36,642 nucleotides of DNA from a bacterium (GTDB taxonomy: Bacteria > UBA9089 > CG2-30-40-21 > SBAY01), in NCBI GenBank assembly GCA_040757115.1, contig JBFLYA010000008.1:1-36642 (forward strand), read 5' to 3'. The position numbers and the translations under genes are program-made. The notes beneath the pieces are model-generated. The model was not told the DNA's origin, searched no databases, and worked only from the letters and a program-made list of their open reading frames with translations. Each line of letters opens with the position of its first letter. The stretch's first letter is position 1. This document shows, piece by piece, positions 229-36,642 of this stretch.

Positions 229-426
229 GTAACTATTCAGCCCCAGATGGACACGGATGAAACACTGAAAATTCGTAAATCGTGTCCGGTATCCGTGTCC
301 GTAATCAGGCTGAAGGGTTTTTCTCCTGTTGTCCTCTGTCCTCTGCCCTCTGCCCTCTGCCTTCTGCCTTCTGCCCTCTGCTATTCATCCGTGCTAATCC
401 GTGTTAATCAGTGGCTGAATAGTTAC
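229..426 (+). mobile_element. Family-1 TIR element, copy A (MITE-like), with 8-bp target duplication
   Basis: The 198-bp element begins GTAACTATTCAGCC and ends with its reverse complement GGCTGAATAGTTAC. It is flanked by a perfect 8-bp direct repeat CCATTTCC (221-228 and 427-434), which marks a genuine insertion. The interior carries CACGGAT-type words and seven tandem heptamers of the form CCTCTGC/CTTCTGC at 333-381. It has no protein-coding capacity. GTAA ends with 8-bp duplications fit IS66-family transposition (family knowledge), so a mobiliser elsewhere in the genome is inferred. Related copies lie at 14390-14660, 22741-22917 and 33589-33762. Confidence 0.85.
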
Positions 427-525
427 CCATTTCCTTTGTATTTCATAGCATTCCATCTATGGGCTGTAATGGGCTTTAGCCCTGAACATAGAGTTTATTC
501 CATATCCCTCACCCATTTTTTCCAC

Positions 526-1590
526 TCACTCAATTACTCCACCGCCAAGTAACACCTCGTCTTTATAGAAGACTACTGATTGTCCTGGCGTCACTGCTCG
601 AACAGGTTGTTTAAACACGACCTCTACCTTATCATTATTTACTGGATGAATGATGGCTTTGGTTTCCGGATGCAGGTATCGGATTTTTGCCACTACCTCC
701 ATTTCAGATTCAAACCTTTCCATCGCCACCCAGTTTAACTCACCGGCTATTAGACTATTTCGATACAGGTCAGATTCATCACCTACGATGACTGCATTTC
801 TGTTTAAGTCTATGCTTATCACATAAAGGGGTCTGCCTGCGGCAATGCCAAGTCCTCTACGCTGACCAATGGTGAAAAATGCAATTCCCGAATGCCTGCC
901 TAAAATATTCCCATTTTTATCCAGTATTTCACCTGGTTTAAATGCATCTTTAATTCTTTGTTGAATAAAATTCCGATAATCTCCTTGTGGAATAAAACAT
1001 ATTTCCTGTGATTCAGGTTTATTTGCGACTTTGAGTCCCAGTCTTACCGCTATCTTTCGAACTTCTTGCTTTTGATAATCCCCTAACGGCATCATTGCCT
1101 GAGATAATTGCTCCTGGGAAAGTTTATACAGGAAATAGGACTGGTCTCTGGTTGTATCAATCCCTTTTTTGATTATATAGCGATTGTTTTGTTTTTCGAG
1201 CCTGGCATAATGACCCGTTGCCAGATAGTCTGCCCCCAATTCCTTAGCCTTAGCCAGCAGGATGTCAAACTTTATTCTGGAGTTGCAGATGATACATGGA
1301 TTGGGAGTTCGACCAGCCAGATATTCCTTTACAAAATAGCTAACTACCATTTGCTCAAATTCTGCCTTACAATCAATGATATGATGTCGGATGCCCAATC
1401 TCTTTGCCACATCTCTGGCATCTACAAAAGATTGTAATGAACAGCAGGTATCTAGCTTTTCAATTTGGCAACTTGATTTAAGTATCTCCATAGTTACACC
1501 AATAACATCATACCCCATCTCTTTAATCAAATAGGCGGTAACCGATGAATCTACACCACCACTCATAGCTACTACAACACATTTTGCCAT
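526..1590 (-). CDS. mnmA: tRNA-uridine 2-sulfurtransferase MnmA
   Basis: This cytoplasmic enzyme thiolates C2 of the wobble uridine (U34) of tRNA Lys, Glu and Gln, using ATP to adenylate the base and a persulfide relay to deliver sulfur. The 354-aa length is normal. The PP-loop SGGVDSS is at residues 10-16. The catalytic Cys pair is recognisable as C102 in the NPCIICN motif and C198 in QEICF, matching the family pair. ATG follows a GAGGT ribosome site. It is transcribed divergently from the aminotransferase, from a TTGACA-17-TAGAAT promoter at 1675-1703. The 3' end faces a region of mobile repeats. Identification is secure. Confidence 0.97.
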   Translation of the reverse strand: MAKCVVVAMSGGVDSSVTAYLIKEMGYDVIGVTMEILKSSCQIEKLDTCCSLQSFVDARDVAKRLGIRHHIIDCKAEFEQMVVSYFVKEYLAGRTPNPCIICNSRIKFDILLAKAKELGADYLATGHYARLEKQNNRYIIKKGIDTTRDQSYFLYKLSQEQLSQAMMPLGDYQKQEVRKIAVRLGLKVANKPESQEICFIPQGDYRNFIQQRIKDAFKPGEILDKNGNILGRHSGIAFFTIGQRRGLGIAAGRPLYVISIDLNRNAVIVGDESDLYRNSLIAGELNWVAMERFESEMEVVAKIRYLHPETKAIIHPVNNDKVEVVFKQPVRAVTPGQSVVFYKDEVLLGGGVIE

Positions 1591-1674
1591 TCTTAGACCT
1601 CATTTCCTTAAAAATGAACCACGAATTTTGGCTAAAACCAACTCCGACTTTCATTGTTTTTCTTTACTTGCACT

Positions 1675-1703
1675 ATTCTAACAAATTTGAATAATTCTGT
1701 CAA
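1675..1703 (-). promoter_or_regulatory. Sigma-70-type promoter of mnmA
   Basis: On the minus strand, TTGACA (1703-1698) is followed after 17 bases by TAGAAT (1680-1675). It lies about 85 bases upstream of the mnmA start and is back to back with the aminotransferase promoter at 1727-1755. Confidence 0.75.
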
Positions 1704-1726
1704 CAATTAAAACCATAGTAAATTTG

Positions 1727-1755
1727 TTGACAGGTTTGCTTCTTTGTGCTATAAT
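1727..1755 (+). promoter_or_regulatory. Consensus promoter of the aminotransferase gene, separated from it by an inserted element
   Basis: TTGACA (1727-1732), 17-base spacer, TATAAT (1750-1755). A 235-bp element is inserted four bases after the -10 box, so the start site now falls at or inside the element's left end. Removing the element and one target copy leaves TATAATCTTTTACGCGGAGG, which puts the ribosome site directly after the expected start site. Confidence 0.85.
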
Positions 1756-1759
1756 CTTT

Positions 1760-1994
1760 GTAACCGTTCAGGTAATCCTTTACCGCAGAGACGCAGAGAA
1801 ACAGAGAGGAAAATATCTTTTTTTTCGTGTTTTTCGGTGTTTAAAAAGGCTTAAAAACAGTTAGTCGAAAGTCCGTATTAAAAGATTAATAAACAACGAA
1901 AGTCCCGAAATGCACAAAAAAGGAAATTTCTGCCTCTGGTGAATAGATTTTAATTTTTTCTCTGCGTCTCTGTGTCTCTGCGGTGAACGGTTAC
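1760..1994 (+). mobile_element. Family-2 TIR element, complete copy, with 8-bp target duplication TAATCTTT
   Basis: The 235-bp element begins GTAACCGTTCA and ends TGAACGGTTAC. Perfect 8-bp direct repeats TAATCTTT lie at 1752-1759 and 1995-2002. Both arms carry ACCGCAGAGAC and further octamer words (CAGAGACG type). The interior is AT-rich and non-coding. The GTAAC termini and duplication length match family 1, so the two families probably use the same transposase type (IS66-like, inferred). It lies between the aminotransferase promoter and its ribosome binding site and will be transcribed as a 5' leader of about 250 nt that can fold on itself. Confidence 0.88.
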
Positions 1995-2018
1995 TAATCT
2001 TTTACGCGGAGGTAAAAA

Positions 2019-3122: not shown

Positions 3123-3155
3123 ACAACAGTCAATATTCAGGAGATACAGTTATTA

Positions 3156-4152: not shown

Positions 4153-4384
4153 TTTCCACCTGTGCGATTAGACTAATTCATCGCAGAGACGCAAAGGAAA
4201 AATAAATGTAAAATGTAAAATAGGAAATGAAAAATGGGAAATTTTAGTACTTCGCAAGACTCATTACCTTTCAGTTATACATTTTCATTTTACATTATCC
4301 ATTTTACATTTAACCGCACAGGTGGAAATATTTTCCTCTCTGTTTCTCTGCGTCTCTGCGGTAAAGAACTGCCTGAACAGTTAC
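4153..4384. repeat. Composite hairpin repeat between the M50 protease gene and trpS
   Basis: TTTCCACCTGTGCG (4153-4166) is the inverted match of 4315-4328. Inside it, heptamers of AAATGTA/AAATGGG type (4204-4245) face complementary heptamers of ATTTTAC type (4281-4311), so the whole can form a long imperfect hairpin. The right end (about 4335-4384) is a terminus of family 2, ending CTGAACAGTTAC and carrying the CGTCTCTGCGGTAAAG words. This terminus stops 7 bases from the protease stop codon. The segment is non-coding and probably built by nested insertions. Confidence 0.7.
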
Positions 4385-8950: not shown

Positions 8951-11347
8951 ATGGGAAAGAAAGAGAGGAGACAGAAAAAGAGGAAGTGGGTTAAATTTAG
9001 GATTCCAAAGTTTCTTATACCGAAGGATGAACCAATTGTTTCAAGTCCTTTCAATGTGATAGATTATGCGGGGGGGATACTGGTATTTTTTATCTGCTGG
9101 ATAGTGTATCAACATACCTTAACTCCTACAATTGGATTTCATGACTCTGGAGATATGATAACCGCGGCTTATGTTCTGGGTATTCCACATCCAACGGGTT
9201 ATCCTCTCTACTGTCTGCTTGGAAAACTATGGATGACTATTCTGCCGATAGGAAACATTGCATATCGTATGAATTTAGCCTCTGCTTTATGTGCCTCATT
9301 AGCGTGTATGATGGTGTACTTTATCATTTTAAAGTTGACAGTGAACAGTAGACAGTGGACAGTAAAAAAAATTTTCTCCAATTCTCCCTTTCTCCCTTTC
9401 TCCGTTTCTATTTCTAATCTCATTCCTGCGATAGTGGGAGCACTAATGCTTGCCTTTGCTACTACATTCTGGGAACAGGCAGTAATAGCAGAAAAATACA
9501 CACTCAATGCTTTGTTTGCAACATTACTAATTTTCATCCTACTAAAGTGGCATGAGACAATTCTACCGATTACCGATCACCGATTACCGACTAAATACCT
9601 CTATCTCTTCGCTTTCACCCTCGGCTTATCCTTCACCCATCATATGCAAACAATCTACTTACTTCCAGCAAGCATATTATTTATCATAACAGTTTACTGG
9701 CAAAAATGGAGAAAAGAAAAACTCTCCCTATTTCCTATTTCCTACTCCCTACTGAAAATGCTTTGCCTATTTATCTTACCGATGTTCTTATACTTATATT
9801 TACCTATATGTGCAAGTCTATCTCCCGATTATAATTGGGGTGATCCACAGACATTGAAGAGATTTATTGCTCATATTTCTGGACAATGGTATAAATCTTA
9901 CTTTGTCTCATCCTTAAATCAGATTTATGAGAATTTATTCCATATACCTTATTTTCTAAGTGATCAATTTACTCAGTATTTTTGGTGGATTAGTTTAATA
10001 GGTCTTTTCTTTTTATTGGCAAAGAGAAAAATCATTGGTTTATTTTTTATAGTTGTAGTAATAATAAACCTATTAGTTGCCAGTAGATATTCTATTCGAA
10101 ATATAGAGGATTATTATTTTCCATTATATATTATTTTTAGTATAACTCTTGGATTAGGTATTATATTTCTTAATAAATTCGTAAAAAAAAGGATAATATT
10201 TTCTGTTTTATTCTTTGGTGTTGTAGTTACTATTTTTTTAATCCATTATCCTTATAATAATAAGAGGGATTATTATTTTGCCTACGATTATGGTTGTGAG
10301 ATTTTATCTTCATTAGATAAAAAGGCGATTATATTTTTAGAGGGTGATAGAACAATTTTTCCTGTTTCTTATCTTAAATATTGTGAAAATCGATATCCTG
10401 AAGTTGCTTTAATTCTTCCTATATTTTTAGTAGATAGTTTCTCTGGAATTCATAAGGGGAAATGGTATGATGAGATACTTAAAGAAAAATATCCTGATAT
10501 AGACTTAAGTACTTTTTCTTGTCTTGATAAAATTAGCCCAGAAAATGTAAAAAAAATTATGATTGATAAAATAATATCTGATAAAGGAATAAATCGGTCA
10601 GTATTTGTAAAGCCTGAGACATTGGGAGATGATTATTTTTTAATTCCCAAAGGGATTTTTTGTAAGGTTATAAAAAAAGAAACAGGGAAGGAAAATTTAT
10701 CGCTGCATTCAAGAAAAAATCGAATAATTATTAGGGGAATTACGGATAATAACAAAATCTTTAAAGACCCAAGACAAACATTAGAAATAGTTATAGCTTA
10801 TCTCTCTTCTCTTAATCTTCAAGGGTTTATTTATTTTTACCAAAGAAGATATCAAGAAGCTATTGAGGAATTTAAAAAAGTCCTTAAAATAAAAATATGC
10901 CCTGAGAAGATTTCATTTTTTATCCCATATGGAAATTTCTATAATGAAATGTTAGATAAATATATAAAAATTACCAGAGAGGTTAATATTCATCTTTTAG
11001 AGAATTATTATCTTTTACTTAATATTCGTAATCAAAAAGAAAAGTTCTATTTAGAAGCCATTGATGTGTATAAAAAAGCATTAGAAATGGCCCCTAATAA
11101 TTCCTCCTTGAGGAATATTATGGGATGTATTTATAGCACATGTCATGAGTATCAATTAGCAATAACAGAATTTAAAGAGGCTCTAAAAATAAATCCAGTA
11201 GATATTAATTGCCGTCGAAATTTAGCTACCGCTTATTACAGAAAAGGATTATTAAAACATGCATTACAGGAATGCAACACTATTCTCAAAATAGACCCAG
11301 GTAATGTCTATGTTAAGGAAATATTAAAGGCAATAGGGAAAAAATAA
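8951..11347 (+). CDS. DUF2723 polytopic membrane protein with C-terminal TPR repeats
   Basis: A 798-aa inner-membrane protein. A basic N-terminus (about 35 aa) leads into a DUF2723 domain: first membrane helix near 37-55, then TPTIGFHDSGDMITAAYVLGIPHPTGYPLYCLLG, the domain hallmark with its GxHDSG and HPTGYP elements. About ten further helices run to residue 435. The DUF2723 fold is that of GT-C glycosyltransferases and is related to TMEM260-type protein O-mannosyltransferases, so sugar transfer at the outer face of the inner membrane is plausible (inferred). TPR-like helices occupy about 620-795. Three loops (around 130-155, 205-215 and 258-268) are encoded by short-word tandem arrays that also occur between genes elsewhere in the window. 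Confidence 0.85.
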   Translation: MGKKERRQKKRKWVKFRIPKFLIPKDEPIVSSPFNVIDYAGGILVFFICWIVYQHTLTPTIGFHDSGDMITAAYVLGIPHPTGYPLYCLLGKLWMTILPIGNIAYRMNLASALCASLACMMVYFIILKLTVNSRQWTVKKIFSNSPFLPFSVSISNLIPAIVGALMLAFATTFWEQAVIAEKYTLNALFATLLIFILLKWHETILPITDHRLPTKYLYLFAFTLGLSFTHHMQTIYLLPASILFIITVYWQKWRKEKLSLFPISYSLLKMLCLFILPMFLYLYLPICASLSPDYNWGDPQTLKRFIAHISGQWYKSYFVSSLNQIYENLFHIPYFLSDQFTQYFWWISLIGLFFLLAKRKIIGLFFIVVVIINLLVASRYSIRNIEDYYFPLYIIFSITLGLGIIFLNKFVKKRIIFSVLFFGVVVTIFLIHYPYNNKRDYYFAYDYGCEILSSLDKKAIIFLEGDRTIFPVSYLKYCENRYPEVALILPIFLVDSFSGIHKGKWYDEILKEKYPDIDLSTFSCLDKISPENVKKIMIDKIISDKGINRSVFVKPETLGDDYFLIPKGIFCKVIKKETGKENLSLHSRKNRIIIRGITDNNKIFKDPRQTLEIVIAYLSSLNLQGFIYFYQRRYQEAIEEFKKVLKIKICPEKISFFIPYGNFYNEMLDKYIKITREVNIHLLENYYLLLNIRNQKEKFYLEAIDVYKKALEMAPNNSSLRNIMGCIYSTCHEYQLAITEFKEALKINPVDINCRRNLATAYYRKGLLKHALQECNTILKIDPGNVYVKEILKAIGKK
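9338..9412 (+). repeat. Heptamer and octamer arrays inside the DUF2723 gene
   Basis: Four heptamers ACAGTGA, ACAGTAG, ACAGTGG, ACAGTAA at 9338-9365 are followed by octamers ATTCTCCC, TTTCTCCC, TTTCTCCG, TTTCTATT at 9381-9412. The frame stays open through both, encoding a polar loop between membrane helices. Confidence 0.8.
9565..9592 (+). repeat. ACCGATT heptamer array inside the DUF2723 gene
   Basis: Four contiguous heptamers ACCGATT, ACCGATC, ACCGATT, ACCGACT, translated in frame as a loop (PITDHRLPT). Confidence 0.85.
9725..9752 (+). repeat. TTCCTAT heptamer array inside the DUF2723 gene
   Basis: Four contiguous heptamers TCCCTAT, TTCCTAT, TTCCTAC, TCCCTAC, in frame (LFPISYSLL) after a basic loop. 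Confidence 0.75.
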
Positions 11348-14664: not shown

Positions 14665-17600
14665 CTACCTGATAATCGCAATCTTGCCTGTCTTCTTCTT
14701 CCCATCGTCAGTAGTCAACACATAAATATACACCCCACTATCTATCTTCTTCCCATAATTATCCCGAACATCCCAAATCCAGGTGGCGCGTTTGCCTTCT
14801 TCGTCTTTGACTAAACTGCCTGAGATGTCGTAGATGCGAATCTGGGTATTCTCTGGTAATCCCTCAAAAACGATATTTTCATCCCCGCGGCCTGGCTTGA
14901 ACGGATTCGGATAGACTACAACCCCATCAAAACCCGCCGGTATCCCTTCCCCAATCAAAATAAATGTCCCAAAATGCGGGACATCGCCATAGATAAAATT
15001 ACTTCCGACTAAAACCTGTGCATTGGTTACCTCCACCCACCTCGATTCAATTGATTCTTCATCCAGGATGTATAATTTCAATCTCTCCTCGGCTACATTC
15101 TTAGGTGGTTGATGGTAATAAATTATCAGTCTGGTTGCTTGTGTCCCAAAATCTCCTTCTATCGGTTTCTTATCCCCATCTTTAGCTACTATGCGGATAA
15201 TGGTATCAGTTAGCAGACAAAATCCCGGGTTATAATGATTCATCCGCAAATTCGCTATCTTAATCTCATCCTCATCCAGAGCGGGTTTATCTATCTTTAG
15301 GTAATAATCTTTACTTACACTATGAGACTTAATGTCTATCTTCAAGTCTCCATCTTCAACCTTTACATTACTTGCGTCATCGTATAACACAGCAAAATCG
15401 TTACTTTGAGACTCTATTGTCTCAATTCTAATAGTAATGTTGACATCAGGTGCGGCTCGGTTAGTCTCAATTGTTACCGTGCCTATCGCTATGCCGTTAT
15501 AGAAGGTGATAGCGGCAGGTTTTATCTGTCCAAAGTTAGTTGTAAGAGAACCCGTCTGGTTGTAATCACTTGCCAGATTGCCATACCTATCCAGGGCAGT
15601 TACTTTAATGCCAAACTTCGTGTTGATAATCTGATGGCTGATAGGGCTAAATTCAAATCGACCGGCTCTACCTGACCTGACAGTTATACTGGCTGTTCCA
15701 ATTATCTCCTCTGAAAATCGGGGCTCGGGGCTCGGGACTCGGGGCTCGTTATTTCTTTCCTCCCCCTTAATCCCCCTCCCGAGGGGGACAAAAACTCTGC
15801 AGGTAAGTATCCCTTTCCCTGACTTTGTTCCCGCTACAAAAGTCGTCTTTGTCCCGCTGACATCAGTCAATTCTCCAATCTCACTTCCCACTTCCCAGTT
15901 CCCACCCCCTATATCCTTCTCATTCCCATACCTATCATAGCCCCTACTGGTAAAGGTGCAACTCCCATCTACCTCGATAATTGCATCTGCAGGTTCGATA
16001 TTTATGTCCGCCAATGTCCCGGGAATAATGGTAATACTTGCTCTTCCAATTATCTCATTCACTTTGCAGGTAAGTGTTCCTTTCCCTGATTTTGTTCCGG
16101 CTACAAAGGTCGTCTTTGAGCCGATAGCATTGGTTAATGTTCCTATTTCACTTCCTACCTCCCATTTCCCATTTCCCACTTCTTTTTCATTCCCATAGTC
16201 ATCATAGCCCTTTGCCATGAATGTCTGGCGTTCATCAGGCATTAAAGTTACACTACCCGGCTGGATTTCAATATAGGCGACCTGCCCGGGTATTACCTTG
16301 AAGACATTACTATTGCCGTATTTACCCGCATAATCAGCCAGGATAGAGGTAGTGCCTGCTTTTGTCATCTTCACATTACCCTGCCATATACCACTAATAA
16401 ACGCAGTAGTTGAGGTAGGAAAGATGGTTTGACTGGCATCGTTTAACCCGACTTTATCAGAAAAATCAAAAATGATATTGTTATCTTTATCCATCGCCTT
16501 TATGGTGATGAAGAATTCTACACCAGCTATCTGAGGGGAAAGAATCGCTTCGAACCAGAAGTGGTCTAAATTGCCAGGTGTAATACCAAAGGCATTACTT
16601 GTCCCTGCAATACCGCCTTTTTCAGTCCTGACTATCACAGGGTCTTGAGCAACAGAGATAGTTACTGGAAAATCCCTTAATTCACCTGCCACAAATCCAG
16701 AGGTAATGGTAGGCTGAATCGAACCTGTGGTATCACTCAATGTATTTGTTCCGGTGTAAGTAGTAACCGTATTCTGATAGGCATCCTGGGCAATGATAGT
16801 TATCTTGAATGGAATCCCTGCTATCTGGTCAGGGATAGGTAGAAAACTGAAGTGATGGAGGTTGGCTGGATTAACAAAGAATGGGGAACTTGTGCCTGTC
16901 CTACCTTGAGCGGTGGCGTAAATTGTGGTCGTCCCTGCTTTAGTGATAGACCCAACCCCCTGCCAGATACCCGCAGAAAAACTATCGCTTATCTTCGGTT
17001 TCAATGTCAATGAAGTATCCTTCAATTCAACCTTATCAGTAAAGCTGGTTACCGTATTGTTGTAGGTATCTTTTGCAGTGATTACGACAGGAAAATCTAT
17101 CCCCGCAGTTTGATTGGTGATAGTGCCGATTAAGAAATGGTCGAGGCTACTGGGGGTGATAAAGAAGGGATTGCTTGTGCCTGTTTTTCCCTGGTAACTT
17201 GCCATAATCGCGGTCGTGCCTGCTCTGGTGATACTAACTGTGCCATCCCAGATGCCCAGGCTAAAGTTTGTGGTTTTAGTCGGGCTAATCGTGCGGCTGG
17301 TATCAGTTAGTGCGGCGGATGAGTTGAACATATCAGCGATATTTCTCCAGCGGTCATAAGCCTTGATGCTGAGTGGAAAACTAATACCTGCGGTTTGAGT
17401 AGTTATAGTGCTAATGACAAAATACTCTACCTCGCCGCCGCAGACCCAGAAGGGGTTACTTGTGCCTCGAATATCCCCATAAATGACAGTAATACTGGTA
17501 GTCCCTCTTACTGTGATAGAGCCAAATCCATCCCACATACCATTTATAAATGAAGTAGTCTGAGTAGGTTTAAGGCTGTTACTCAAGTCAATTAGTGTTA

Positions 17601-20600
17601 CTGTCCTGGTAAAAGGAATAGGATTTTCGTAAGCATCTCTGGCGGTGATTTTAATCGGGAAATTCATCCCCGCAGTCTGGGTAGCAATAGTATCGAAAGT
17701 GAACATTGCTAATTCGCCAGAACTGGTAGTAATAGTTCCGGAGGTAGCAGGTGGTAGAGTAGATAGGAGTTTTATCCTAACTTTATCGTTGGCATTAGGT
17801 GAAACCCAGTAGGTAATAGTGTCTATCTGACCGGTATTGGTGGTAGTAGAAGTGGTGGCAGATAGTGTTCCTGGTTTACCAGAAAGCATCACTACCTCTA
17901 AATTACAACTAATCCCTGCAGACCCAACCGCATTACCATAAACATCGATTAATTGAGCAGTGATGCTTACTGAACCCCCTGCCAGGATGTAGACAGGATT
18001 TTCAGGATAGACGATGAATTTAACTGGCTCGCCTGGCAGGACATAAAAAGGATTGCTTGTGCCTGTCTTACTCTGGTAACCTGCGGAAATCGAGCTTGTG
18101 CCTGCTCTGGTGATGGTAACAGTGCCATCCCAGATGCCACCAGTGAAGTTAGTCGTAGTTGTAGGAAAGATAGTATTAGAAGTATCAGACAGGGTAGCAC
18201 TTGCCCTGAAATTCCTCACTATATCTCCATGAATGTCATAAGCAGTTATTTTAATGGTAAATGGAATGCCAGCGATTTGCGGAGATGGAATTGTGCCAAA
18301 TAGAAAATATTCCGGGGAAAGGATAAAGAATGTGGTGGTAGCTGTAAGGTTTAAAAGAAGACCAGTGGCGGTAATGGTAATTGTGCCAAAGCTTTCATCT
18401 GTAACAGTAAATGTGGTAGAAAATGTTCCCTCTGAGCCTGGGATGGCTGTGGCAATTGTCCTGGTTTTCCCAAAATCAATCCTGACCAGGCTCTCATCCT
18501 TAAAATTTTCTCCCACAATGGTAACAATCTTAGTCACAGAGCCAGAACCAGGGTTAATTCTAATTATTGGCGGGGGTGGTGGAATGACACGGGTAGTGCA
18601 AGAGGCAGTAGAGGTTGCCGCCTCATTGTTGTAGAGAAAAGCAATATTTGTTATCGTTCCTTCCCTCTTAAATATGCTCACTCTGGAAGAAAAGCTCATT
18701 GTTCCACATTCTTTAATGGTTAGACTCCCTATTGTCCAAACCAGTGTTCTTATTTCTGGACAATAGGTTACTGTTCCTATAGTAATTAGAGAAATGGATG
18801 GAGTGCCTAAGTTATCCTCTATGGTATCAATAACATAGGCACCAGACAGTGGCAGGTCGCCGTCATTTATAAAGGATAGTGTATAGGTTAAGGTTGCTCC
18901 TGGGTCTATGGTTTCAGTTCCTACTTTAAGCAAGGTAATGAATGCCCGCTGGATTTCTCCCACAAATTCTACATCATGTGAACAATTAAGGGATGGGAAG
19001 AAGAAAGAGGGGGGAGTAAATATTGTCCGCGTAGCGGATACAGTCAGAGTATAGGTTGCCACAGGTAGGTTGGTAAAGGAAAATTTGCCATATTTGTCTG
19101 TTTTTGTGGCGAATCCATCAAGGAATACATCCGCACCTACTATGGGTGCAAAATTCTCCTCTCTTACCCTGCCGGTTATGGCTGAAAGGGGAAGGATGGT
19201 AATATAGGTAGTGGCGGTTGCTGTGATATTTCCTTTTGCATTCAGCGGATAAAGACCAGCAGGTAAAGACGGAAGAGCAAACTCTACATTTATTGTTCCA
19301 TTTGGGGATGAGGTGGTTGTAGCAACAGAGAGTGTTCCAAGATAGAGTCGAACAGTTTCATTGTTAGCAAACCACTGGCCGGTTACATTTATTGTCCCCT
19401 CGGGATAGGCTTTATCCGGGTTGGCATCGATAAATGGCTGGTTGGATGTTCTATAAGGGATATTTACCTCATATAATGTTGGGGTGTATTCCAAATCAGA
19501 GGTGGAAAGGATTGCCTGGTATTGGATGAACCTTGCGTTAAGATTAAGGCTTTCTCCATTGCTTACCTTTCTCCAGGAAGATAAGGTTTGTGTGCTATTT
19601 CCCGAGCGAACATACATAGAAAGCTCTGTTGAAAATGGCTTTCTCTCTTTCCAGAAGATATTCTCAAAGATAACTGAGGAGCCTGCATCAAAGATGGAAG
19701 AGGTGTAGGTGCCAAGGGGATGGTAGGGACCTTTGTTTATTCCAGAGATAAAGGGACCTGAGTTTTTATATCCAGTAACCAGGTCATAGTCTCCATCGTT
19801 GTCAAGGTCAACCCCGGATAACTGGTAATAAGGGTGAGTAATAGTATCAAACATCTTTTCATATGCTTCGGGTGCTCTTTCAAAAGAGGGAGGGGTAGAT
19901 GTTCTAAGCTTTAGATAAACCTTAGTAGGATAAATGGTTCCATGAAATACAATATCATCATTGTTATCGCCATTTAGGTCCATTGCAGTTAGTTTAGGAA
20001 TATAACCTAAAGGATTTATATCTTTAAAGCCTGTGCTTTCTTCCCAGGTTTTATTCCTCTTCCAGATTGGCGAGGTTATGCTTCCAATATTTTCTAAGAT
20101 AACAAATATCCGCCAGGTAGGAAGAAGAAGGTCATAATCCTTATCATTATCTAAGTCAAGAAGAAATGGAGCGGGAGAAGAGGTATCAAAGTCATCCAAT
20201 CCTTCAGAAATTAAATATTCTGCGGTTATATTCCATTGGGGGTTATAGGAAAATTTGGTTGTTTGTGTGCTTATGTTTCTAAATGCCCCTACATTTTCGC
20301 CCTTTCCAGTTTTATATGTAGCAACAAGTAAATCTGGCTTTCCATCACCATTGAGGTCAGCTACTGTTGGGGTAATCTCCATACCATTATATCCATTTTG
20401 CTCATTTTCTAACACAATACTGTAATGTTTCCGAGGAAAATATGGAATCTCTGGTGTCCCTGTATTTTGAGCAATATAAATACGGGGTTTATTACAACTT
20501 CCTGCCCCTTCACTATGTATTTCCTCATAATCACCATCGCCATTAAGGTCAGCAAAGGTTATGCCTCCCATTATATGGAATCCATCAAGTGGTTGATAGC

Positions 20601-21672
20601 TTTTTAACTGAAACCTTGGATTGCTAATATCGCCAACATTCTCAAAAGGAATTAATATTCCATCTTCCCCCCCATTAATCATATCAAAATCTCCATCGCC
20701 ATCAAGGTCGGCAAAGGCTATTGTTGCAACTGCGCTATCGCCTGGAGGAGAGTATTCTTCTGGAGGTTGTCCAAACAACCCCCACAATATATAAGACCGC
20801 ATTCCCCAGTTGGGAGATAATATTCCTGTGTTTTTATAAAGATATATATTTCCCCACTCGTTGAATGTAAAGACAAGAAAAGGGTTTTTGGTGTTTTCCA
20901 GGTCAACGAGTTCTACGTTTAAATCCCATCCATTTCCTATTAATTCAGACAACATAGGAGGGGGATTCCATTCAGGCTTTGGAATAAATTTGTTATCTTT
21001 GTTTTCATATGAAAGGAGTCTTACATCAACAAAATTACCTGTATTTGTTCCTTGCTCTATATAACAGATTATAAGGTCAGGGTAATTATCAGAATTTAAA
21101 TCGCCCAATTCACAGGCAAATTCAAAACCTTGATTATGAAAATCCTTGACATCCCATTCTAGCTTCCTTTCCCATTCCCAATTTCCCTTTCCTTTATAAC
21201 CATGGATTTCACTTACATTATAAACTACCAATAAATCCAGTATTCCATCTTTATCAATATCACCAAGACTACAACTTCCATCAGTTAAAAAAGGAAATTC
21301 CCCTCTTTTTTTAAATAATGGGCTATATTTTGTCCCTTTGTTTTCTAAGAGAATAATCTTTTTTGTAGCTTTATCGCCTACTAAAAGGTCAATGTCTCCA
21401 TCATTATCTATATCACCAAATTCTGGTTCAAGAAAGAGTAACCCCGACATCTCGCTGGGCAGGGGTGCCCAGGTATCTACAGGCTCAAACAGGGGATATT
21501 GGGAGGAGAGCTTAAGGGATTTAGGGCTTCTTACCCACTTGCAGCCGGGGATGTCAGAGGTGGTAACCTGGGTAAGGCTTCCATCCATAAAATAATTATC
21601 CCTGAATTCAGAGGCATTGCAATATGCAATAGCCAATAAGCAATAGCCAATAGTTAATAAATGCTTAATCAT
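14665..21672 (-). CDS. Giant secreted FG-GAP / Ig-like repeat protein with FlgD-like C-terminal domain
   Basis: A 2335-aa exported protein. The signal peptide (about residues 1-20) precedes roughly nine FG-GAP/VCBS blades with calcium-type loops such as DIDNDGDID, DLDGDGDFD and DLNGDGKPD (about 85-640), predicting a beta-propeller. Then come a carboxypeptidase-regulatory-like domain (about 830-880), a DUF11-like domain (925-1000), an IPT/TIG domain (1038-1100), six or more copies of an Ig-like module with QxAG...I.ITA.D.Y.N (1120-1800) and two Big-type modules with WEVGSEIG (1800-2000). The C-terminal FlgD-like/sorting-type domain starts YPNPFKPGRG (2248-2335). ATG 21672 is chosen because a -10 box lies 8 bases upstream; a GTG at 21690 would be inside the promoter. 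A surface adhesin or matrix role is inferred. Confidence 0.88.
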   Translation of the reverse strand: MIKHLLTIGYCLLAIAYCNASEFRDNYFMDGSLTQVTTSDIPGCKWVRSPKSLKLSSQYPLFEPVDTWAPLPSEMSGLLFLEPEFGDIDNDGDIDLLVGDKATKKIILLENKGTKYSPLFKKRGEFPFLTDGSCSLGDIDKDGILDLLVVYNVSEIHGYKGKGNWEWERKLEWDVKDFHNQGFEFACELGDLNSDNYPDLIICYIEQGTNTGNFVDVRLLSYENKDNKFIPKPEWNPPPMLSELIGNGWDLNVELVDLENTKNPFLVFTFNEWGNIYLYKNTGILSPNWGMRSYILWGLFGQPPEEYSPPGDSAVATIAFADLDGDGDFDMINGGEDGILIPFENVGDISNPRFQLKSYQPLDGFHIMGGITFADLNGDGDYEEIHSEGAGSCNKPRIYIAQNTGTPEIPYFPRKHYSIVLENEQNGYNGMEITPTVADLNGDGKPDLLVATYKTGKGENVGAFRNISTQTTKFSYNPQWNITAEYLISEGLDDFDTSSPAPFLLDLDNDKDYDLLLPTWRIFVILENIGSITSPIWKRNKTWEESTGFKDINPLGYIPKLTAMDLNGDNNDDIVFHGTIYPTKVYLKLRTSTPPSFERAPEAYEKMFDTITHPYYQLSGVDLDNDGDYDLVTGYKNSGPFISGINKGPYHPLGTYTSSIFDAGSSVIFENIFWKERKPFSTELSMYVRSGNSTQTLSSWRKVSNGESLNLNARFIQYQAILSTSDLEYTPTLYEVNIPYRTSNQPFIDANPDKAYPEGTINVTGQWFANNETVRLYLGTLSVATTTSSPNGTINVEFALPSLPAGLYPLNAKGNITATATTYITILPLSAITGRVREENFAPIVGADVFLDGFATKTDKYGKFSFTNLPVATYTLTVSATRTIFTPPSFFFPSLNCSHDVEFVGEIQRAFITLLKVGTETIDPGATLTYTLSFINDGDLPLSGAYVIDTIEDNLGTPSISLITIGTVTYCPEIRTLVWTIGSLTIKECGTMSFSSRVSIFKREGTITNIAFLYNNEAATSTASCTTRVIPPPPPIIRINPGSGSVTKIVTIVGENFKDESLVRIDFGKTRTIATAIPGSEGTFSTTFTVTDESFGTITITATGLLLNLTATTTFFILSPEYFLFGTIPSPQIAGIPFTIKITAYDIHGDIVRNFRASATLSDTSNTIFPTTTTNFTGGIWDGTVTITRAGTSSISAGYQSKTGTSNPFYVLPGEPVKFIVYPENPVYILAGGSVSITAQLIDVYGNAVGSAGISCNLEVVMLSGKPGTLSATTSTTTNTGQIDTITYWVSPNANDKVRIKLLSTLPPATSGTITTSSGELAMFTFDTIATQTAGMNFPIKITARDAYENPIPFTRTVTLIDLSNSLKPTQTTSFINGMWDGFGSITVRGTTSITVIYGDIRGTSNPFWVCGGEVEYFVISTITTQTAGISFPLSIKAYDRWRNIADMFNSSAALTDTSRTISPTKTTNFSLGIWDGTVSITRAGTTAIMASYQGKTGTSNPFFITPSSLDHFLIGTITNQTAGIDFPVVITAKDTYNNTVTSFTDKVELKDTSLTLKPKISDSFSAGIWQGVGSITKAGTTTIYATAQGRTGTSSPFFVNPANLHHFSFLPIPDQIAGIPFKITIIAQDAYQNTVTTYTGTNTLSDTTGSIQPTITSGFVAGELRDFPVTISVAQDPVIVRTEKGGIAGTSNAFGITPGNLDHFWFEAILSPQIAGVEFFITIKAMDKDNNIIFDFSDKVGLNDASQTIFPTSTTAFISGIWQGNVKMTKAGTTSILADYAGKYGNSNVFKVIPGQVAYIEIQPGSVTLMPDERQTFMAKGYDDYGNEKEVGNGKWEVGSEIGTLTNAIGSKTTFVAGTKSGKGTLTCKVNEIIGRASITIIPGTLADINIEPADAIIEVDGSCTFTSRGYDRYGNEKDIGGGNWEVGSEIGELTDVSGTKTTFVAGTKSGKGILTCRVFVPLGRGIKGEERNNEPRVPSPEPRFSEEIIGTASITVRSGRAGRFEFSPISHQIINTKFGIKVTALDRYGNLASDYNQTGSLTTNFGQIKPAAITFYNGIAIGTVTIETNRAAPDVNITIRIETIESQSNDFAVLYDDASNVKVEDGDLKIDIKSHSVSKDYYLKIDKPALDEDEIKIANLRMNHYNPGFCLLTDTIIRIVAKDGDKKPIEGDFGTQATRLIIYYHQPPKNVAEERLKLYILDEESIESRWVEVTNAQVLVGSNFIYGDVPHFGTFILIGEGIPAGFDGVVVYPNPFKPGRGDENIVFEGLPENTQIRIYDISGSLVKDEEGKRATWIWDVRDNYGKKIDSGVYIYVLTTDDGKKKTGKIAIIR
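15712..15795 (-). repeat. In-frame insertion of a dispersed composite repeat in the giant gene
   Basis: On the minus strand the segment reads TTTTTGTCCCCC, a GGGG-rich half, GGATTAAGGGG, then four heptamers of GAGCCCC type (15720-15747). The same parts in the same order lie between genes at 35342-35432. Comparison of the two Big-type modules of the protein shows that the second carries about 27 additional residues exactly here, between TCRV and EIIGTASIT; the first reads TCKVNEIIGRASIT. Confidence 0.8.
15882..15909 (-). repeat. Heptamer array (CACTTCC type) in the giant gene
   Basis: Contiguous heptamers CACTTCC, CACTTCC, CAGTTCC, CACCCCC on the plus strand. In translation they contribute to the WEVGSEIG part of a Big-type module. 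Confidence 0.65.
16149..16183 (-). repeat. Heptamer array (CATTTCC type) in the giant gene
   Basis: Five contiguous heptamers CACTTCC, TACCTCC, CATTTCC, CATTTCC, CACTTCT on the plus strand, read in frame as VGNGKWEVGSE. The previous Big-type module copy has the equivalent array at 15882-15909, so this array may have been duplicated with the domain. Confidence 0.65.
21619..21653 (-). repeat. Heptamer array encoding the signal peptide core of the giant protein
   Basis: Five contiguous heptamers on the plus strand: GCAATAT, GCAATAG, CCAATAA, GCAATAG, CCAATAG. Read on the minus strand in frame they give the hydrophobic core TIGYCLLAIAYC of the signal peptide. Confidence 0.85.
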
Positions 21673-21680
21673 TCTACTTA

Positions 21681-21709
21681 AGAATAACACCTAATTACTT
21701 AAATTTCAA
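21681..21709 (-). promoter_or_regulatory. Promoter of the giant secreted-protein gene
   Basis: Minus strand TTGAAA (21709-21704), 17-base spacer, TATTCT (21686-21681). Eight bases then precede ATG at 21672, predicting a leaderless or nearly leaderless mRNA. It is arranged back to back with the promoter at 21721-21749. Confidence 0.6.
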
Positions 21710-21754: not shown

Positions 21755-22732
21755 ATGATGAAGAAGAAATGGCATCCGTATTTCTCAAATGTATTAAAAC
21801 ATCTACTCGAACCTAAAGGCTTTACGGTTGAAACAGAGGTTGAGGTTGGCAAAATGCCATTAAGAATAGATATTGTGGTCATTAAAAAGGGCAAGGATGC
21901 GGATGTTAAATCTTTACCTCTTGTATTCCAATCATTTACTGATTATAATGTTATTGAATATAAATCACCTGGGGATAGATTCACCCGGAATGATTTTGAC
22001 CGATTATTTGCTTATGTGCTATTATTTAAGATAAAAAAGAATATAGAATGGCGAAGACAAATAAATGTTTATGCACTTTTAAGCGGTGGTATAAAGGGGA
22101 TAGAGGATTATATTCGTGGTAATGGGCATAAACTGGCAAAGATAAAGGAAGGGCTTTATTTTGCGGATTTTGGGTTTAATTTTTATTTAATCCAGCTGGA
22201 TAGGTTAGAGGTGACTCCTGAAAACTATGGACTAATTCTTTTTACTTCAGGAGAATCCATTAGGGAATTAGCCAGGGGAATAGGTAGTAAAAGGGAAGAT
22301 ATATTAGAGGTAGAGTTAGTAGAGTTAATAGAAACAGGGTTGTATCTACATCCTGATGAATTTAAGGAGGAGGTGAAATTGATGCCACAGACATTAGCCG
22401 ATAGACCAGATATAATGAGAGAGCTTGTCGATATAGTAGGGATTGACAAATTTGTGCAAGGGATTGGAGAGGAGAAGGTAATTCGTAGCATTGGGGAAAA
22501 GAAGGTAATTCGCAGCATTGGGGAGAAAGAGGTAATTCGCAGCATTGGGGAGAAAGAGGTAATTCGCAGCATTGGGGAAAAAGAGGTAATTCGTAGCATT
22601 GGGGAAAAAGAGGTAATTCGCAGCATTGGGGAAAAAGAGGTAATCCGTACCATTGGGGAAGAGAATTTATTGAAAGATCTTATACATCTCCTTGGCAAAG
22701 AGAAGATAAAAAAGATGTTGAAGGAAAATTAA
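21755..22732 (+). CDS. PD-(D/E)XK nuclease-like protein with C-terminal nine-residue repeats
   Basis: A 325-aa protein. The N-terminal domain has the PD-(D/E)XK nuclease core: D39 in LRIDIVV and E68-x-K70 in NVIEYKSPGD. It resembles the Rpn/PDDEXK transposase-associated group, so DNA cleavage is likely but untested. A middle helical part (about 150-235) is followed by seven tandem copies of VIRSIGEKE (residues 242-304) and a basic tail. There is no Shine-Dalgarno at the start; the promoter abuts the tandem ATGs, so translation is probably leaderless. A much stronger ribosome site lies inside, before M210. It is divergent from the giant gene and convergent with proC. Confidence 0.75.
   Translation: MMKKKWHPYFSNVLKHLLEPKGFTVETEVEVGKMPLRIDIVVIKKGKDADVKSLPLVFQSFTDYNVIEYKSPGDRFTRNDFDRLFAYVLLFKIKKNIEWRRQINVYALLSGGIKGIEDYIRGNGHKLAKIKEGLYFADFGFNFYLIQLDRLEVTPENYGLILFTSGESIRELARGIGSKREDILEVELVELIETGLYLHPDEFKEEVKLMPQTLADRPDIMRELVDIVGIDKFVQGIGEEKVIRSIGEKKVIRSIGEKEVIRSIGEKEVIRSIGEKEVIRSIGEKEVIRSIGEKEVIRTIGEENLLKDLIHLLGKEKIKKMLKEN
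22365..22384 (+). promoter_or_regulatory. Strong internal ribosome binding site and in-frame ATG in the nuclease gene
   Basis: AAGGAGGAGGTGA (22364-22376) matches the anti-Shine-Dalgarno almost fully. Five bases later comes ATG (22382-22384), in frame with the nuclease (M210). A product from here would be 116 aa containing only the C-terminal region with the nine-residue repeats. The main start of the gene has no such site. Confidence 0.55.
22478..22666 (+). repeat. Seven 27-bp tandem repeats encoding VIRSIGEKE
   Basis: Seven direct units of exactly 27 bp, each starting GTAATTCG(T/C)AGCATTGGG. The first differs at the end (KK), and the last is degenerate (VIRTIGEEN). Units are nearly identical at DNA level, so copy number is probably unstable but always in frame. 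Confidence 0.95.
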
Positions 22733-22740
22733 GAAAATTA

Positions 22741-22917
22741 GTAACTATTCAGCCACTGATTAACACGGATTAGCACGGATGAATAGCAGAGGGCAGAAGG
22801 CAGAGGGCAGAGGACAACAGGAGAAAAACCCTTCAGCCTGATTACGGACACGGATACCGGACACGATTCAGGAATTTTCAGTGTTTCATCCGTGTTCATC
22901 TGTGGCTGAATAATTAC
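22741..22917 (-). mobile_element. Family-1 TIR element, copy C, overlapping the proC stop codon
   Basis: The 177-bp element starts GTAACTATTCAGCCACTG and ends GTGGCTGAATAATTAC, in the same orientation as copy B. It has four heptamers of GCAGAGG type (22786-22813). It fills the convergent gap between the nuclease gene (stop 8 bases away) and proC. The outermost bases of its right terminus (minus strand GTAA) supply the TAA stop of proC. The flanking octamers do not match, so no target duplication is visible. Confidence 0.85.
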
Positions 22918-23735
22918 TCTAATCTTAATTCTTTTGCCCGATTATTTGCGGCGGTGACTGCCTGGATAAATGCCGAGCGGATTCCTTTTTCTTCTAAGAC
23001 ATTTAGTGCAGAAATGGTTGCTCCACCTGGTGAAGTAACCTTATCTCGTAAAACCGCTGGATGTTCAGAAGTCTGTTTGAGCATTTTAATTGCTCCTTCT
23101 ATCGTTTCAATCGTTAAGGTTAAAGATGTATCTCGCGGTAGTCCTACCGATACGCCTGCATCGGTCAAGACCTCAACGATAGTAAAGAGATATGCAGGAC
23201 CACAGCCCGATAATGCTGTAACCGCCTCCATTAAAACCTCTTTGACGACCACGACCTTTCCTACCGCTTCAAATATGGCTTTGACTAACTCCAAATCCTG
23301 CGTATCTGCATACCTTCCTTTACAAATACCCGCCATACCCTGCCCGACTAAAACTGGTGTATTTGGCATCACACGGATTACTGAAATCTCTATATTAAAT
23401 TTAGATTCAATAAATTTTGTGGTAATCCCCGCGGCGATAGAAATAATCTTTTGCTCGGGTTTTATAATCTCGGAGATTTCAACCAAAACCTCCGGCATTA
23501 TCTGAGGTTTAATTGATAAGATAATAATATCTGCCCATCTGATACCTTCTTTATTATCACTTGTTCCGTTTATACCTAACTCTTCTTTAAAAAATTCAAG
23601 TTGTTTTAAGTTAACATCACAGACCAGGAGATTATTCTTTTCAATTAAATCTATCTTTAATATTCCTCTGATTAATGCTTCAGCCATATTCCCGGCGCCA
23701 ATAAAAACTAATTTCTTCCCTTTTAACAACTCCAT
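22914..23735 (-). CDS. proC: Pyrroline-5-carboxylate reductase
   Basis: The last step of proline synthesis: NAD(P)H reduction of 1-pyrroline-5-carboxylate, in the cytoplasm. The 273-aa length is normal. The Rossmann motif VFIGAGNMAEALIRG is at about residues 10-24. Further signatures are MPNTPVLVGQGMAGI and the C-terminal LRDKVTSPGGATISAL. GGGGAAAG precedes ATG. It lies 9 bases downstream of the FN3 protein gene on the same strand, probably sharing its promoter at 26398-26426. The stop codon is formed by the end of a mobile element, so the original C-terminus may have differed by a few residues. Confidence 0.96.
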   Translation of the reverse strand: MELLKGKKLVFIGAGNMAEALIRGILKIDLIEKNNLLVCDVNLKQLEFFKEELGINGTSDNKEGIRWADIIILSIKPQIMPEVLVEISEIIKPEQKIISIAAGITTKFIESKFNIEISVIRVMPNTPVLVGQGMAGICKGRYADTQDLELVKAIFEAVGKVVVVKEVLMEAVTALSGCGPAYLFTIVEVLTDAGVSVGLPRDTSLTLTIETIEGAIKMLKQTSEHPAVLRDKVTSPGGATISALNVLEEKGIRSAFIQAVTAANNRAKELRLE

Positions 23736-26620: not shown

Positions 26621-26672
26621 CTATCTGCAATTCAATATATAGATATGAAAAAGACAGGGAAAGAGAACCAAT

Positions 26673-28144: not shown

Positions 28145-28329
28145 GTAACCGTTTAGCCTTGCCCATCAGACTGGACAATATTAACTCAAAACTTTAAACT
28201 AATAGGTTCATTGAGATTTATTGCGACTGATGGAGAAGCCTTTTTGGTCTTAAGTTGTAGTTTTGAGCTTTGCGTTTTGAGATTTGAGTTATAAGGACAT
28301 ATGTCAGTTAAAATTGCAAAAGAAAGCGT
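28145..28329. repeat. Heptamer inverted pair upstream of the Rpn nuclease gene
   Basis: It begins with GTAACCGTTTAGCC, a close relative of the family-1 and family-2 termini. Heptamers AACTCAA, AACTTTA, AACTAAT (28193-28213) face GTTGTAG, TTTTGAG, CTTTGCG, TTTTGAG, ATTTGAG (28254-28288). The segment is non-coding. No matching right terminus was found, so it is probably a decayed element. Confidence 0.6.
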
Positions 28330-33588: not shown

Positions 33589-33762
33589 GTAACTATTCAG
33601 CCACAGATGGACACAGATGAAACACTGAAAATTCGTGAATCGTGTCCGTTTTCCGTGTCCGTAATTAGGCTGAAGGTTTTTCCACCTATTGTCCTCTGCC
33701 TTCTGCCCTCTGCCTTTTGTCCTCTACTATTTATCCGTGCTAATCAGTGGCTGAATAGTTAC
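33589..33762 (+). mobile_element. Family-1 TIR element, copy D
   Basis: The 174-bp element starts GTAACTATTCAGCCACAG and ends GTGGCTGAATAGTTAC, in the same orientation as copy A. It has five heptamers of CCTCTGC type (33693-33727). The flanking octamers differ, so no duplication remains. It ends two bases from the stop codon of the glutamate-synthase-like gene. Confidence 0.85.
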
Positions 33763-33764
33763 CC

Positions 33765-35129
<1,365 letters not shown>

Positions 35130-35160
35130 CTAATAATCTCCTTTTTTCCTGAAAATAGGA

Positions 35161-35257
35161 AGTAGAGAGTAGAGGGTAGAGAGTAGAAAGTAAAGAAAAT
35201 ACCACTCCTCACGCTTATCTCCCCATCTCCCACCTTCTATCTCCTATCTACTATTTT
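35161..35257. repeat. Heptamer inverted pair (AGTAGAG type)
   Basis: Five heptamers AGTAGAG, AGTAGAG, GGTAGAG, AGTAGAA, AGTAAAG (35161-35195) face CTATCTC, CTATCTA, CTATTTT (35237-35257). Part of the gene-free 35130-35532 segment between the two Nfn genes. Confidence 0.75.
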
Positions 35258-35486
35258 CATCCTCATTTGTGAACCAACGGTTCATGACCGTTTCCCCTGA
35301 AAATATCCGCAGATTTCGCAGAGGACACAGATTTTTAATTTTTTGTCTCCCCGCTGACGGGATTAAGGGGTTAGGGGATTCTTTTATTCCCGAATCCCGA
35401 GCCCCGAGCCCCGAGTCCCGAGCCCCTTAATTTTCATCCCCCTTTGTGCCCACTTCCTGTGGGCATGAGCGTTTCTCCTGGATTAA
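35254..35486. repeat. Two similar hairpin repeats flanking a composite repeat
   Basis: Two related segments of about 50 bp (35254-35303 and 35434-35485) share TTTTCATCC, TTTGTG, CATGA and CGTTTC. Each holds a stem-loop at the same place, TGAACC / GGTTCA (35270-35284) and TGCCCAC / GTGGGCA (35447-35465), with different bases but kept pairing. Between them, 35342-35432 holds a GTCTCCCCGCTGACGGG hairpin word and five heptamers of CCCGAGC type (35389-35423), the same composite found inside the giant gene at 15712-15795. Confidence 0.65.
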
Positions 35487-35532
35487 AAACCTTAATATTC
35501 TCAGATCCAGCAAGTTGATTAAGGTCTAATCA

Positions 35533-36372
35533 TTATCCGCACTTACATTTAGATGTATATCTTTCTAATGCAATTTTTTCCTCCTCTACAAACCTTACCT
35601 GTCTTTGCATTAACTCATCAAAATCAACTAAATGCCCATCAAATGTAGGTCCATCTACGCAGGCAAATTTTGTTTTCCCACCAACAGTTACCCTGCACGA
35701 ACCACACATCCCCGTGCCATCAACCATAATCGTATTTAAACTAACTAATGTCGGAACATCAAATTTTTTAGTTACCGCACAACTTGCCTTCATCATCGGC
35801 AAGGGGCCAATGGCAATGACTAAATCTGGCTTTTCCTGTGTTTCCAATAATCTCTCTAAAACCTTAGTAACAAAGCCCTGTTCACCATACGAACCATCAT
35901 CGGTGCAGATATAAAGTTGATTACTGATGGCATTCATTTCTTGCTCTAAAATAACTAAATCTTTAGTGCGAGCACCAATAATGGAGGTAATTTCAGCTCC
36001 AGATTTGTTTAATGCCTTTGCTTTAGGATAGATAGGTGCCGCACCTACACCCCCAGCCACACAAAATATCCTTTTGTCTGAACCAGTTACTTCGATATGT
36101 TTCCCGAGAGGACCTACAAAATCCTGGAGATAATCCCCTGTCTTTAGTTTGCCCAATTGTCTGGTTGTCTTCCCTACCTCCTGAAAAATAATACTTACCG
36201 TTCCCTTTTGTGCATCGTAATCATAAATAGTTAGTGGTATCCGTTCACCAGCCTTATTGATTCTCAAGATGATGAATTGACCCGGTTGGCAAGACCTTGC
36301 TATTTTGGGCGCATCAATAACAAATAATTTTATCTCTTTTGCTAATTCTTTGGTAAATAATATCTTATACAT
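35533..36372 (-). CDS. NfnA/SudB-type FAD/NAD(P)-binding [2Fe-2S] subunit (ferredoxin-NADP reductase family)
   Basis: A 279-aa flavoprotein of the PyrK/ferredoxin-NADP reductase group. The FAD-binding motif GERIPLTIYDYD and the NAD-binding FCVAGGVGAAPIYPKA are followed by the C-terminal [2Fe-2S] cysteines in DGTGMCGSCRVTVG and KFACVDGPTFDG, then a terminal CKCG. With the downstream large subunit it should form the NADH/ferredoxin/NADP transhydrogenase (Nfn) or sulfide dehydrogenase complex. The ATG at 36372 is chosen because GGAGG lies five bases upstream. A reading from 36414 would add 14 residues with no ribosome site. Confidence 0.88.
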   Translation of the reverse strand: MYKILFTKELAKEIKLFVIDAPKIARSCQPGQFIILRINKAGERIPLTIYDYDAQKGTVSIIFQEVGKTTRQLGKLKTGDYLQDFVGPLGKHIEVTGSDKRIFCVAGGVGAAPIYPKAKALNKSGAEITSIIGARTKDLVILEQEMNAISNQLYICTDDGSYGEQGFVTKVLERLLETQEKPDLVIAIGPLPMMKASCAVTKKFDVPTLVSLNTIMVDGTGMCGSCRVTVGGKTKFACVDGPTFDGHLVDFDELMQRQVRFVEEEKIALERYTSKCKCG

Positions 36373-36642
36373 TTTTCCTCCATCCCTTGTTTCCTTTTTA
36401 AAATTAGTATTCATTCGTGAAATTCGGGTGGTGTCTTAATCTAGTGCTCTGTCGCTACTCAATTGATGTCCCCCCTTGGCCTAATCATTACCCACATCTT
36501 TTAGTGGACAGATTTGATAGAAATTCCAAATTCCAAGCACCAAATTCCAAATAAATTCCAAATTCCAAGCACCAAATCCCAAACACCAAATTCCAAAGTT
36601 TATATTACAACGATGGAAATTCATTTAGACTTTTCAATAATT
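36373..36642. repeat. Upstream region with a CAAATTC heptamer array
   Basis: From about 36530 to 36597 the DNA consists of heptamers CAAATTC, CAAGCAC, CAAATCC, CAAACAC, with an 11-base break near the middle and a duplicated block of about 31 bp. No gene was seen in the rest; no clear promoter for the downstream gene could be identified. Confidence 0.65.

Follow-up and report, generated by a model that had tools for sequence, protein, structure and literature searches.

We have analysed a 36,642-nt stretch of bacterial DNA (hereafter the window), which is contig C8 of a 4.3-Mb genome labelled G000, for tandem arrays with a 7-nt period (heptamer arrays). Such arrays lie between genes, where many of them belong to dispersed elements, and in frame inside genes, as in a TMEM260-like gene (8951-11347) and a gene with a type IX secretion (T9SS) tail (14665-21690; Table 1). 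An earlier note on this DNA had proposed one period with many words and, behind it, a process that makes or expands 7-mers. This agreed with our main finding that the words differ at the same codon sites of orthologues and paralogues, with the period being kept.

The period-7 signal in the window and the genome

Tandem periods were detected with a run-based scan, a score of at least 13 being the threshold for an array and 20 dinucleotide shuffles serving as the control for the window. Nine runs of period 7 were found in the window, against 0.0 expected from the shuffles, together with six of period 14 and one of period 8; none of the periods 6 and 8-12 gave more than one run. The genome-wide scan, which covered 798 kb, returned 115 arrays of period 7, compared with 7, 14, 7 and 11 arrays of periods 6, 8, 9 and 10, respectively (N gaps account for two matches at every period, including two of the 115). 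The period-7 arrays of the genome comprised more than 40 word classes. Tandem units of 7 nt were thus more frequent than chance and than other unit lengths, as expected of heptanucleotide simple sequence repeats. The same preference was observed for isolated perfect two-copy duplications in intergenic DNA, where period 7 was found 117 times (14 expected), with a smaller excess at period 8 (53 vs 5.3 expected) and period 9 (24 vs 1.0 expected).

The earlier note had named the lack of a genome-wide excess of period 7 over 6, 9 or 10 as the result that would overturn it; since the excess was found, the observation stands. The period was also seen at every place where the note had listed an array across the window, except for AACTCAA at 28193, a 12-base run with a score of 5 at which period 7 was not supported. 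The facing inverted pairs that it described proved real as well. A reverse-complement partner was present at most 200 bp away for 62 of 145 arrays (3 of 145 in the control), and an inverted match at 6-7 of 7 positions was found in 15 of 34 neighbouring array pairs, compared with 3% of random word pairs. A hairpin is not a requirement for arrays, as single-armed ones exist.

Different words at the same codon sites

The large subunit of carbamoyl-phosphate synthase (CarB) contains an ATTCAAA array adjoining the motif IVEMEGE, in a loop that aligns with the E. coli sequence VRLEEKVAEVGITGLNADF in solved structures. We have compared this loop across 16 genomes. The word was ATTCAAA in G000 and in its same-genus sister G001 (~98% identical to G000), AAAATCG in G003, GAATTGC in G005, AGTCAGA in G007, AATTGCA in G009 and GGATTTC in G014. 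The loop carried a degenerate TCAGGGN in G004 and G006, was intermediate in G015 and was non-repetitive in six genomes (G008, G011, G012, G013, G016 and G019). Three different words were found inside one genus (G004-G007), and the words would have arisen independently, judging from their difference rather than from a tree.

The loops with an array measured 30 (G000), 42 (G003), 57 (G005), 36 (G007), 39 (G009) and 39 nt (G014), and those of the six genomes without one 33-39 nt. The heptamers have therefore replaced existing sequence and were not added to it. When the peptide of each of the eight array loops was recoded at random with synonymous codons, the lag-7 identity of the actual DNA was seldom reached (p ≤ 0.003 for seven loops, p = 0.02 for that of G004), showing that the periodicity belongs to the DNA and goes beyond what the peptide needs. 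Positions 2 and 9 of the loop peptides tend to remain hydrophobic.

The TMEM260-like gene offered three further fixed sites, which were compared in relatives from four genomes (~13 distinct genes, because L268 of G001 duplicates L185). The words of the relatives included AAGTGGG, ACAGTTT and GGAGCAC at site 1 and TCATCCC, CACTTAC and CTACTCT at site 3, with the word classes AATCGGT, AAAAATC, AAAACTC, AACGCTC, AAAGCTC, AAAATCC and GGAGCAC at site 2. Mean lag-7 identity was 0.53, 0.68 and 0.53 for loops 1, 2 and 3, respectively, against 0.23-0.34 at other lags. By the anchors used, nearly all loops were in frame (two scored out of frame), and the site-2 lengths of 57, 78 and 99 differed in steps of 21, that is 3 × 7. 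Site 3 had arrays without hairpins (mean z 0.1), and some loops (L185, L180) contained other palindromic inserts in place of heptamers.

The arrays listed in the earlier note at 9338, 9565, 9725, 15720, 15882 and 16149 lie in frame inside genes, which had gone unmentioned. In total, 26 of 145 arrays were in frame inside open reading frames (ORFs) of at least 150 amino acids (aa), including those of CarB, PilB/T2SSE, T2SSF, PilM/PilN, CobN and diphthamide synthase. Two neighbouring YfhO-like genes carried AGAAGTC and AAAATCC arrays, apparently at one and the same loop. A further in-frame array, of AAGTGGG, was noticed at 358-391 of locus L149 of G014, in the loop right before AYEPVWAIGTG of a protein that looks like triosephosphate isomerase.

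Mobile elements and changes between relatives

Several arrays of the window sit in multi-copy elements, as seen when it was searched against G001. The GTAACTATTCAGCC family resembles miniature inverted-repeat transposable elements (MITEs), which combine terminal inverted repeats (TIRs) with target site duplications (TSDs) of fixed length: its TIR was counted 318 times across the genome, one mismatch being allowed (0 for the control), and 8 of 45 candidate TIR pairs in the 798 kb have an exact 8-bp TSD. A related 315-bp insertion with the 8-bp TSD AACCAATG and a CAGAGGG array is present only in G001, at window position 26666, and array-bearing insertions of G000 have no counterpart in G001, so that empty and filled sites exist between genomes of the same genus. 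The GTAA ends and 8-bp TSD of the family recall those of IS66. No transposase was matched to the cassette family described below or to the GTAACTATTCAGCC family, for which no transposase search was made. A second MITE-like family was noticed at L046 507-827, with a TIR near TAGGGTTCTGCAAAAT, a duplication of ~10 bp (TTTTATTCCT) and an interior of facing AACTATA heptamers; G001 lacks it at the corresponding site.

Other heptamers were found in cassette arrays, in which a variable cargo of 80-150 bp, bounded by TGAAAATA and TATTTTCA, alternates with a hairpin spacer of ~50 bp whose stem varies in sequence with its pairing kept (25 strict matches in 798 kb). Cassette arrays were also present at loci L163, L187 and L190 of G001 and at L039 15855-16469, with insertions at CYCCTRA-like sites. 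These palindromic units with variable spacers have the build of repetitive extragenic palindrome/bacterial interspersed mosaic element (REP/BIME) or IS200/IS605-like arrays, and the cassette arrays resemble BIMEs or integron attC arrays. The genome has six Y1_Tnp matches, with no link to the cassette spacers shown.

The earlier note had preferred a generating process to copies of one element. In that form the contrast was not supported, as many intergenic arrays are internal to dispersed multi-copy elements of several families, with TSDs and empty and filled sites; transport by elements thus belongs to the story. Both 40-bp flanks were repeated for 64 of 142 arrays (~45%), against 24% of random intergenic slots. 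The idea that all arrays are parts of MITEs was rejected, since flanks are repeated for only about half of them and the CarB arrays are not insertions.

We have then compared arrays between G000 and G001, using for orthologue indels only the individually displayed cases, as raw counts contained alignment artefacts. In three test regions, only 7 of 34 arrays fell wholly within orthologous blocks. Base by base, one of these seven shared arrays differed in copy number, two differed by substitutions only and four were identical. Copy-number change in 7-nt steps between close relatives was observed in few cases: the 4204/4278 hairpin is shorter in G001 by 7 bp in one arm and by 14 bp in the other, and the 33693 array is longer in G001 by one heptamer (7 bp) at the orthologous place. 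The comparison of orthologous loci, which the earlier note had suggested, therefore revealed that arrays change, by 7 or 14 bp between sisters, and that words differ at fixed codon sites. Between dispersed copies, indels peaked at 7 bp (100, against 23 at 6 bp and 46 at 8 bp, array length differences included). The transition/transversion ratio was 2.5 between array units, near the 2.1 found between orthologues; such an ordinary ratio calls for no special mutagenesis, and a special transition mutagenesis was rejected.

Table 1. Heptamer arrays and associated features of the window. A dot means that no strand is assigned; coordinates in the last column are those of the array.
Position	Strand	Feature	Period-7 signal
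229..426	.	MITE-like element, 198 bp, TIR GTAACTATTCAGCC ... GGCTGAATAGTTAC, 8-bp target duplication CCATTTCC at 221-228 and 427-434	
330..381	+	CCTCTGC array inside the 198-bp MITE-like element	good, 330-381
4153..4341	.	Facing AAATGTA (4204-4221) and TACATTT (4278-4311) arrays within a dispersed element that has many copies in G001	weaker/degenerate, 4204-4221 with 4278-4311
9333..9364	+	TMEM260-like gene 8951-11347, ACAGTRR array at loop site 1 (coding)	weaker/degenerate, 9338-9363
9373-9409		8-bp TTTCTCCC array after the site-1 array of the TMEM260-like gene	
9564..9590	+	TMEM260-like gene, ACCGATT array at loop site 2 (coding)	good, 9564-9590
9727..9753	+	TMEM260-like gene, TTCCTAT array at loop site 3 (coding)	good, 9727-9753
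15718..15748	-	T9SS-tailed gene 14665-21690 (2341 aa), in-frame TCGGGGC array	good, 15718-15748
15882..15904	-	T9SS-tailed gene, in-frame CACTTCC array (peptide GGNWEVGSE)	good, 15882-15904
16160..16182	-	T9SS-tailed gene, in-frame CATTTCC array (peptide EVGNGKWE)	good, 16160-16182
21618..21653	.	GCAATAG array, identical in the sister genome G001	weaker/degenerate, 21618-21653
22741..22935	.	Second GTAACTATTCAGCC-family copy, with GCAGAGG array	good, 22786-22813
28259..28290	+	TTTTGAG array, degenerate, weak	weaker/degenerate, 28262-28288
33589..33762	.	Third GTAACTATTCAGCC-family copy, with CCTCTGC array	weaker/degenerate, 33693-33725
35144..35490	.	Cassette array of TGAAAATA-cargo-TATTTTCA units, spacers with variable hairpin (TTTGTG...CATGAGCGTTTCYCCT)	
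35161-35192		AGTAGAG heptamers in cassette cargo	good, 35161-35192
35388-35426		CCCGAGC heptamers in cassette cargo	good, 35388-35426
36521..36597	+	AAATTCC array with 32-bp higher-order unit, within dispersed sequence	weaker/degenerate, 36521-36597

Repeats with other periods were also noticed. A 27-bp tandem coding repeat of ~7 copies lies at 22473-22665 of the window, in a 325-aa gene (21755-22732) without a Pfam match. G000 and G001 also contain a dispersed element of ~240 bp with an internal 10-bp period (AATAGAAATT), in dozens of copies that are nearly identical (for example L048 12184-12420, L048 16158-16398 and L046 3348-3587).

Possible origin of the 7-nt period and known systems

We lean towards the view that unconstrained DNA of this lineage is rewritten into heptamers by synthesis that slips or re-copies in 7-nt steps, with transport by elements in addition. 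Slippage or re-copying by 7 nt at a time is the simplest account of a constant step combined with a free choice of word, on any DNA without constraint, and slippage is the most likely mechanism. On unconstrained DNA, synthesis would slip or re-copy by 7 nt and more rarely by 8 and 9. Between genes, short mobile elements would be the place where arrays form and evolve, often in hairpin arms, before being spread by these elements. In genes, the same process may act on loops that tolerate any sequence. Selection would retain the frame and the approximate loop length, so that only whole-codon products survive and the loop turns into heptamers without growing. The word would be the local sequence that seeded the process, so that it varies by lineage and the period stays. 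A wider proposal is that DNA synthesis has an intrinsic 7-nt step in several phyla, converts freely evolving DNA at constant length, including loops of essential enzymes, and swaps the words; this we advance tentatively, as possible rather than probable.

Several points weigh against slippage or re-copying in 7-nt steps. With only one of seven shared arrays differing in copy number and four identical, the process must be slow, and some relatives in the phylum have few or no arrays, in small samples. Why the step should be 7 has not been demonstrated by anyone. A single 7-bp step breaks the reading frame, so coding arrays need 21-nt steps, paired events or another route, and no intermediate was seen. 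The Y-family DNA polymerase domain (PF00817) had no match in 19 genomes of the phylum (G000-G018), as opposed to 11 of 14 control genomes with a match. A Y-family polymerase was therefore rejected as the slipping enzyme; its absence from the searched phylum members removes one ready candidate, and another polymerase must act if slippage is the cause.

Simple transport can also explain many arrays. If it acted alone, pre-made heptamer hairpins would be the cargo of MITEs and REP/BIME-like cassettes that land between genes and rarely in gene loops, and a change of word would be one element replacing another. The array-carrying insertions with 8-bp TSDs, the empty and filled sites between G000 and G001, the repeated flanks and the palindromic inserts in some TMEM260-like loops are compatible with this. 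However, most CarB loops that hold an array do not exceed in length those that lack one, and no target duplication is seen there, the site 3 arrays of the TMEM260-like genes lack hairpins, and the two-copy duplications likewise peak at 7; we consider transport alone unlikely. The nearby partners and inverted matches of the arrays could instead reflect copying of one arm from the other, through template switching in a cruciform or a stalled fork, with the copying geometry setting the 7-nt step. Such templating is quite unlikely, given that more than half of the arrays are partnerless and that those of CarB and of site 3 are single-armed.

A dedicated enzyme, similar to a reverse transcriptase, telomerase or terminal transferase, that writes 7-nt repeats at breaks or gaps would account for a step that is fixed when the word is not, and for rewriting without net insertion. 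No candidate gene was identified, and because the same period-7 excess occurs in unrelated phyla the enzyme would need to be widespread or very mobile, so this appears very improbable. We find it equally hard to believe that period-7 DNA is kept for a useful RNA hairpin or a 7-residue peptide. Some loops do fold well, and hydrophobic residues at positions 2 and 9 of the CarB loop are what a 7-residue period gives, but the lag-7 identity of the DNA exceeds the need of the peptide, CarB of six genomes does without an array, and words and peptides vary freely.

The question why bacteria prefer repeat units of 7 goes back to the first description of the excess. It becomes testable at fixed codon sites, of which the CarB loop is one: a single homologous position can be compared over many genomes, its non-repetitive state is known, and the word that replaced this state is on record. 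If 7-nt slippage or re-copying is indeed at work, it shapes protein loops besides intergenic DNA, and heptamer arrays common to distant phyla should not be readily taken for horizontal transfer or regulation. The 27-mer CTCTGCCCTCTGCCTTCTGCCCTCTGC occurs in Cyanobacteria, Niastella and other Bacteroidota, Chloroflexi, Nitrospirae, Verrucomicrobia, Desulfobulbaceae and Pirellulales. The idea that phyla have a common vocabulary was rejected: apart from this ascertained word, the overlap between word sets was small and often near the reversed-word control. None of 15 genomes with CCTCTGC arrays contained the word ACTCGGG. The cyanobacterial link hinted at in the earlier note was not borne out for this genome, whose Pfam content (T9SS tails, LpxC, LpxD and BamA) points to an organism of the Fibrobacteres-Chlorobi-Bacteroidetes (FCB) type, although Cyanobacteria, like other phyla, do contain the same words and show the same excess.

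The short tandemly repeated repetitive (STRR) sequences of cyanobacteria, described in 1990 by Mazel and colleagues and mentioned in PMC4692102, are reportedly tandem heptanucleotides in intergenic DNA. The arrays studied here share these features, but the gene content of their host points away from Cyanobacteria, and MITEs as well as coding loops contain them too. Known MITEs and REP/BIME mosaics have in common with our elements that they are short and multi-copy, with TIRs and TSDs or with palindromic units alternating with variable segments; unlike in them, the element interior here often consists of heptamer arrays.

Mrazek et al. (2007; cited in PMC4679880 and PMC4692102) described scattered bacteria in which tandem repeats of 7-mers exceed those with other unit lengths, and proposed slippage tied to a 7-nt polymerase contact. 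As far as these citations convey, those arrays were described genome by genome, whereas we compare the same codon sites of essential genes across genomes and find different words at near-constant length. MacGregor (2015; PMC4679880) reported TAACTGA direct repeats in Beggiatoaceae, Cyanobacteria and Bacteroidetes, which resemble our arrays in being common to distant phyla, in changing by steps of 7 nt between strains and in lying partly inside ORFs. That study concerns one word, mostly upstream of start codons and, within ORFs, mostly at protein ends; here there are many words, facing pairs and internal loops of conserved enzymes. TAACTGA is not among the words listed for this genome, which places its arrays outside the TAACTGA repeats. 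The GGGNATC repeats that Rehm et al. (2015; PMC4692102) described in Xanthomonas and Nostoc are likewise period-7 arrays; they lie between the same genes in relatives and vary there in copy number. GGGNATC is a G-quadruplex-forming word, and most words here have no such G runs. The tRNA-Leu intron of cyanobacteria has degenerate heptanucleotide repeats in its P6b stem (Class 1 and 2 motifs; PMC3488679), which pair in a hairpin and vary in copy number, with two word classes at one site. This is a single structural RNA locus in one phylum, whereas the arrays described here are genome-wide, extend to protein loops, use many words and do not require a hairpin.

The period-7 excess, TAACTGA across phyla and the heptamer hairpins of the tRNA-Leu intron are thus known (PMC4679880, PMC4692102, PMC3488679). 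As far as the compared literature shows, what is new is that the same loop of an essential enzyme has been repeatedly rewritten by different heptamers at near-constant length, and that the generation of arrays is separated from their transport.

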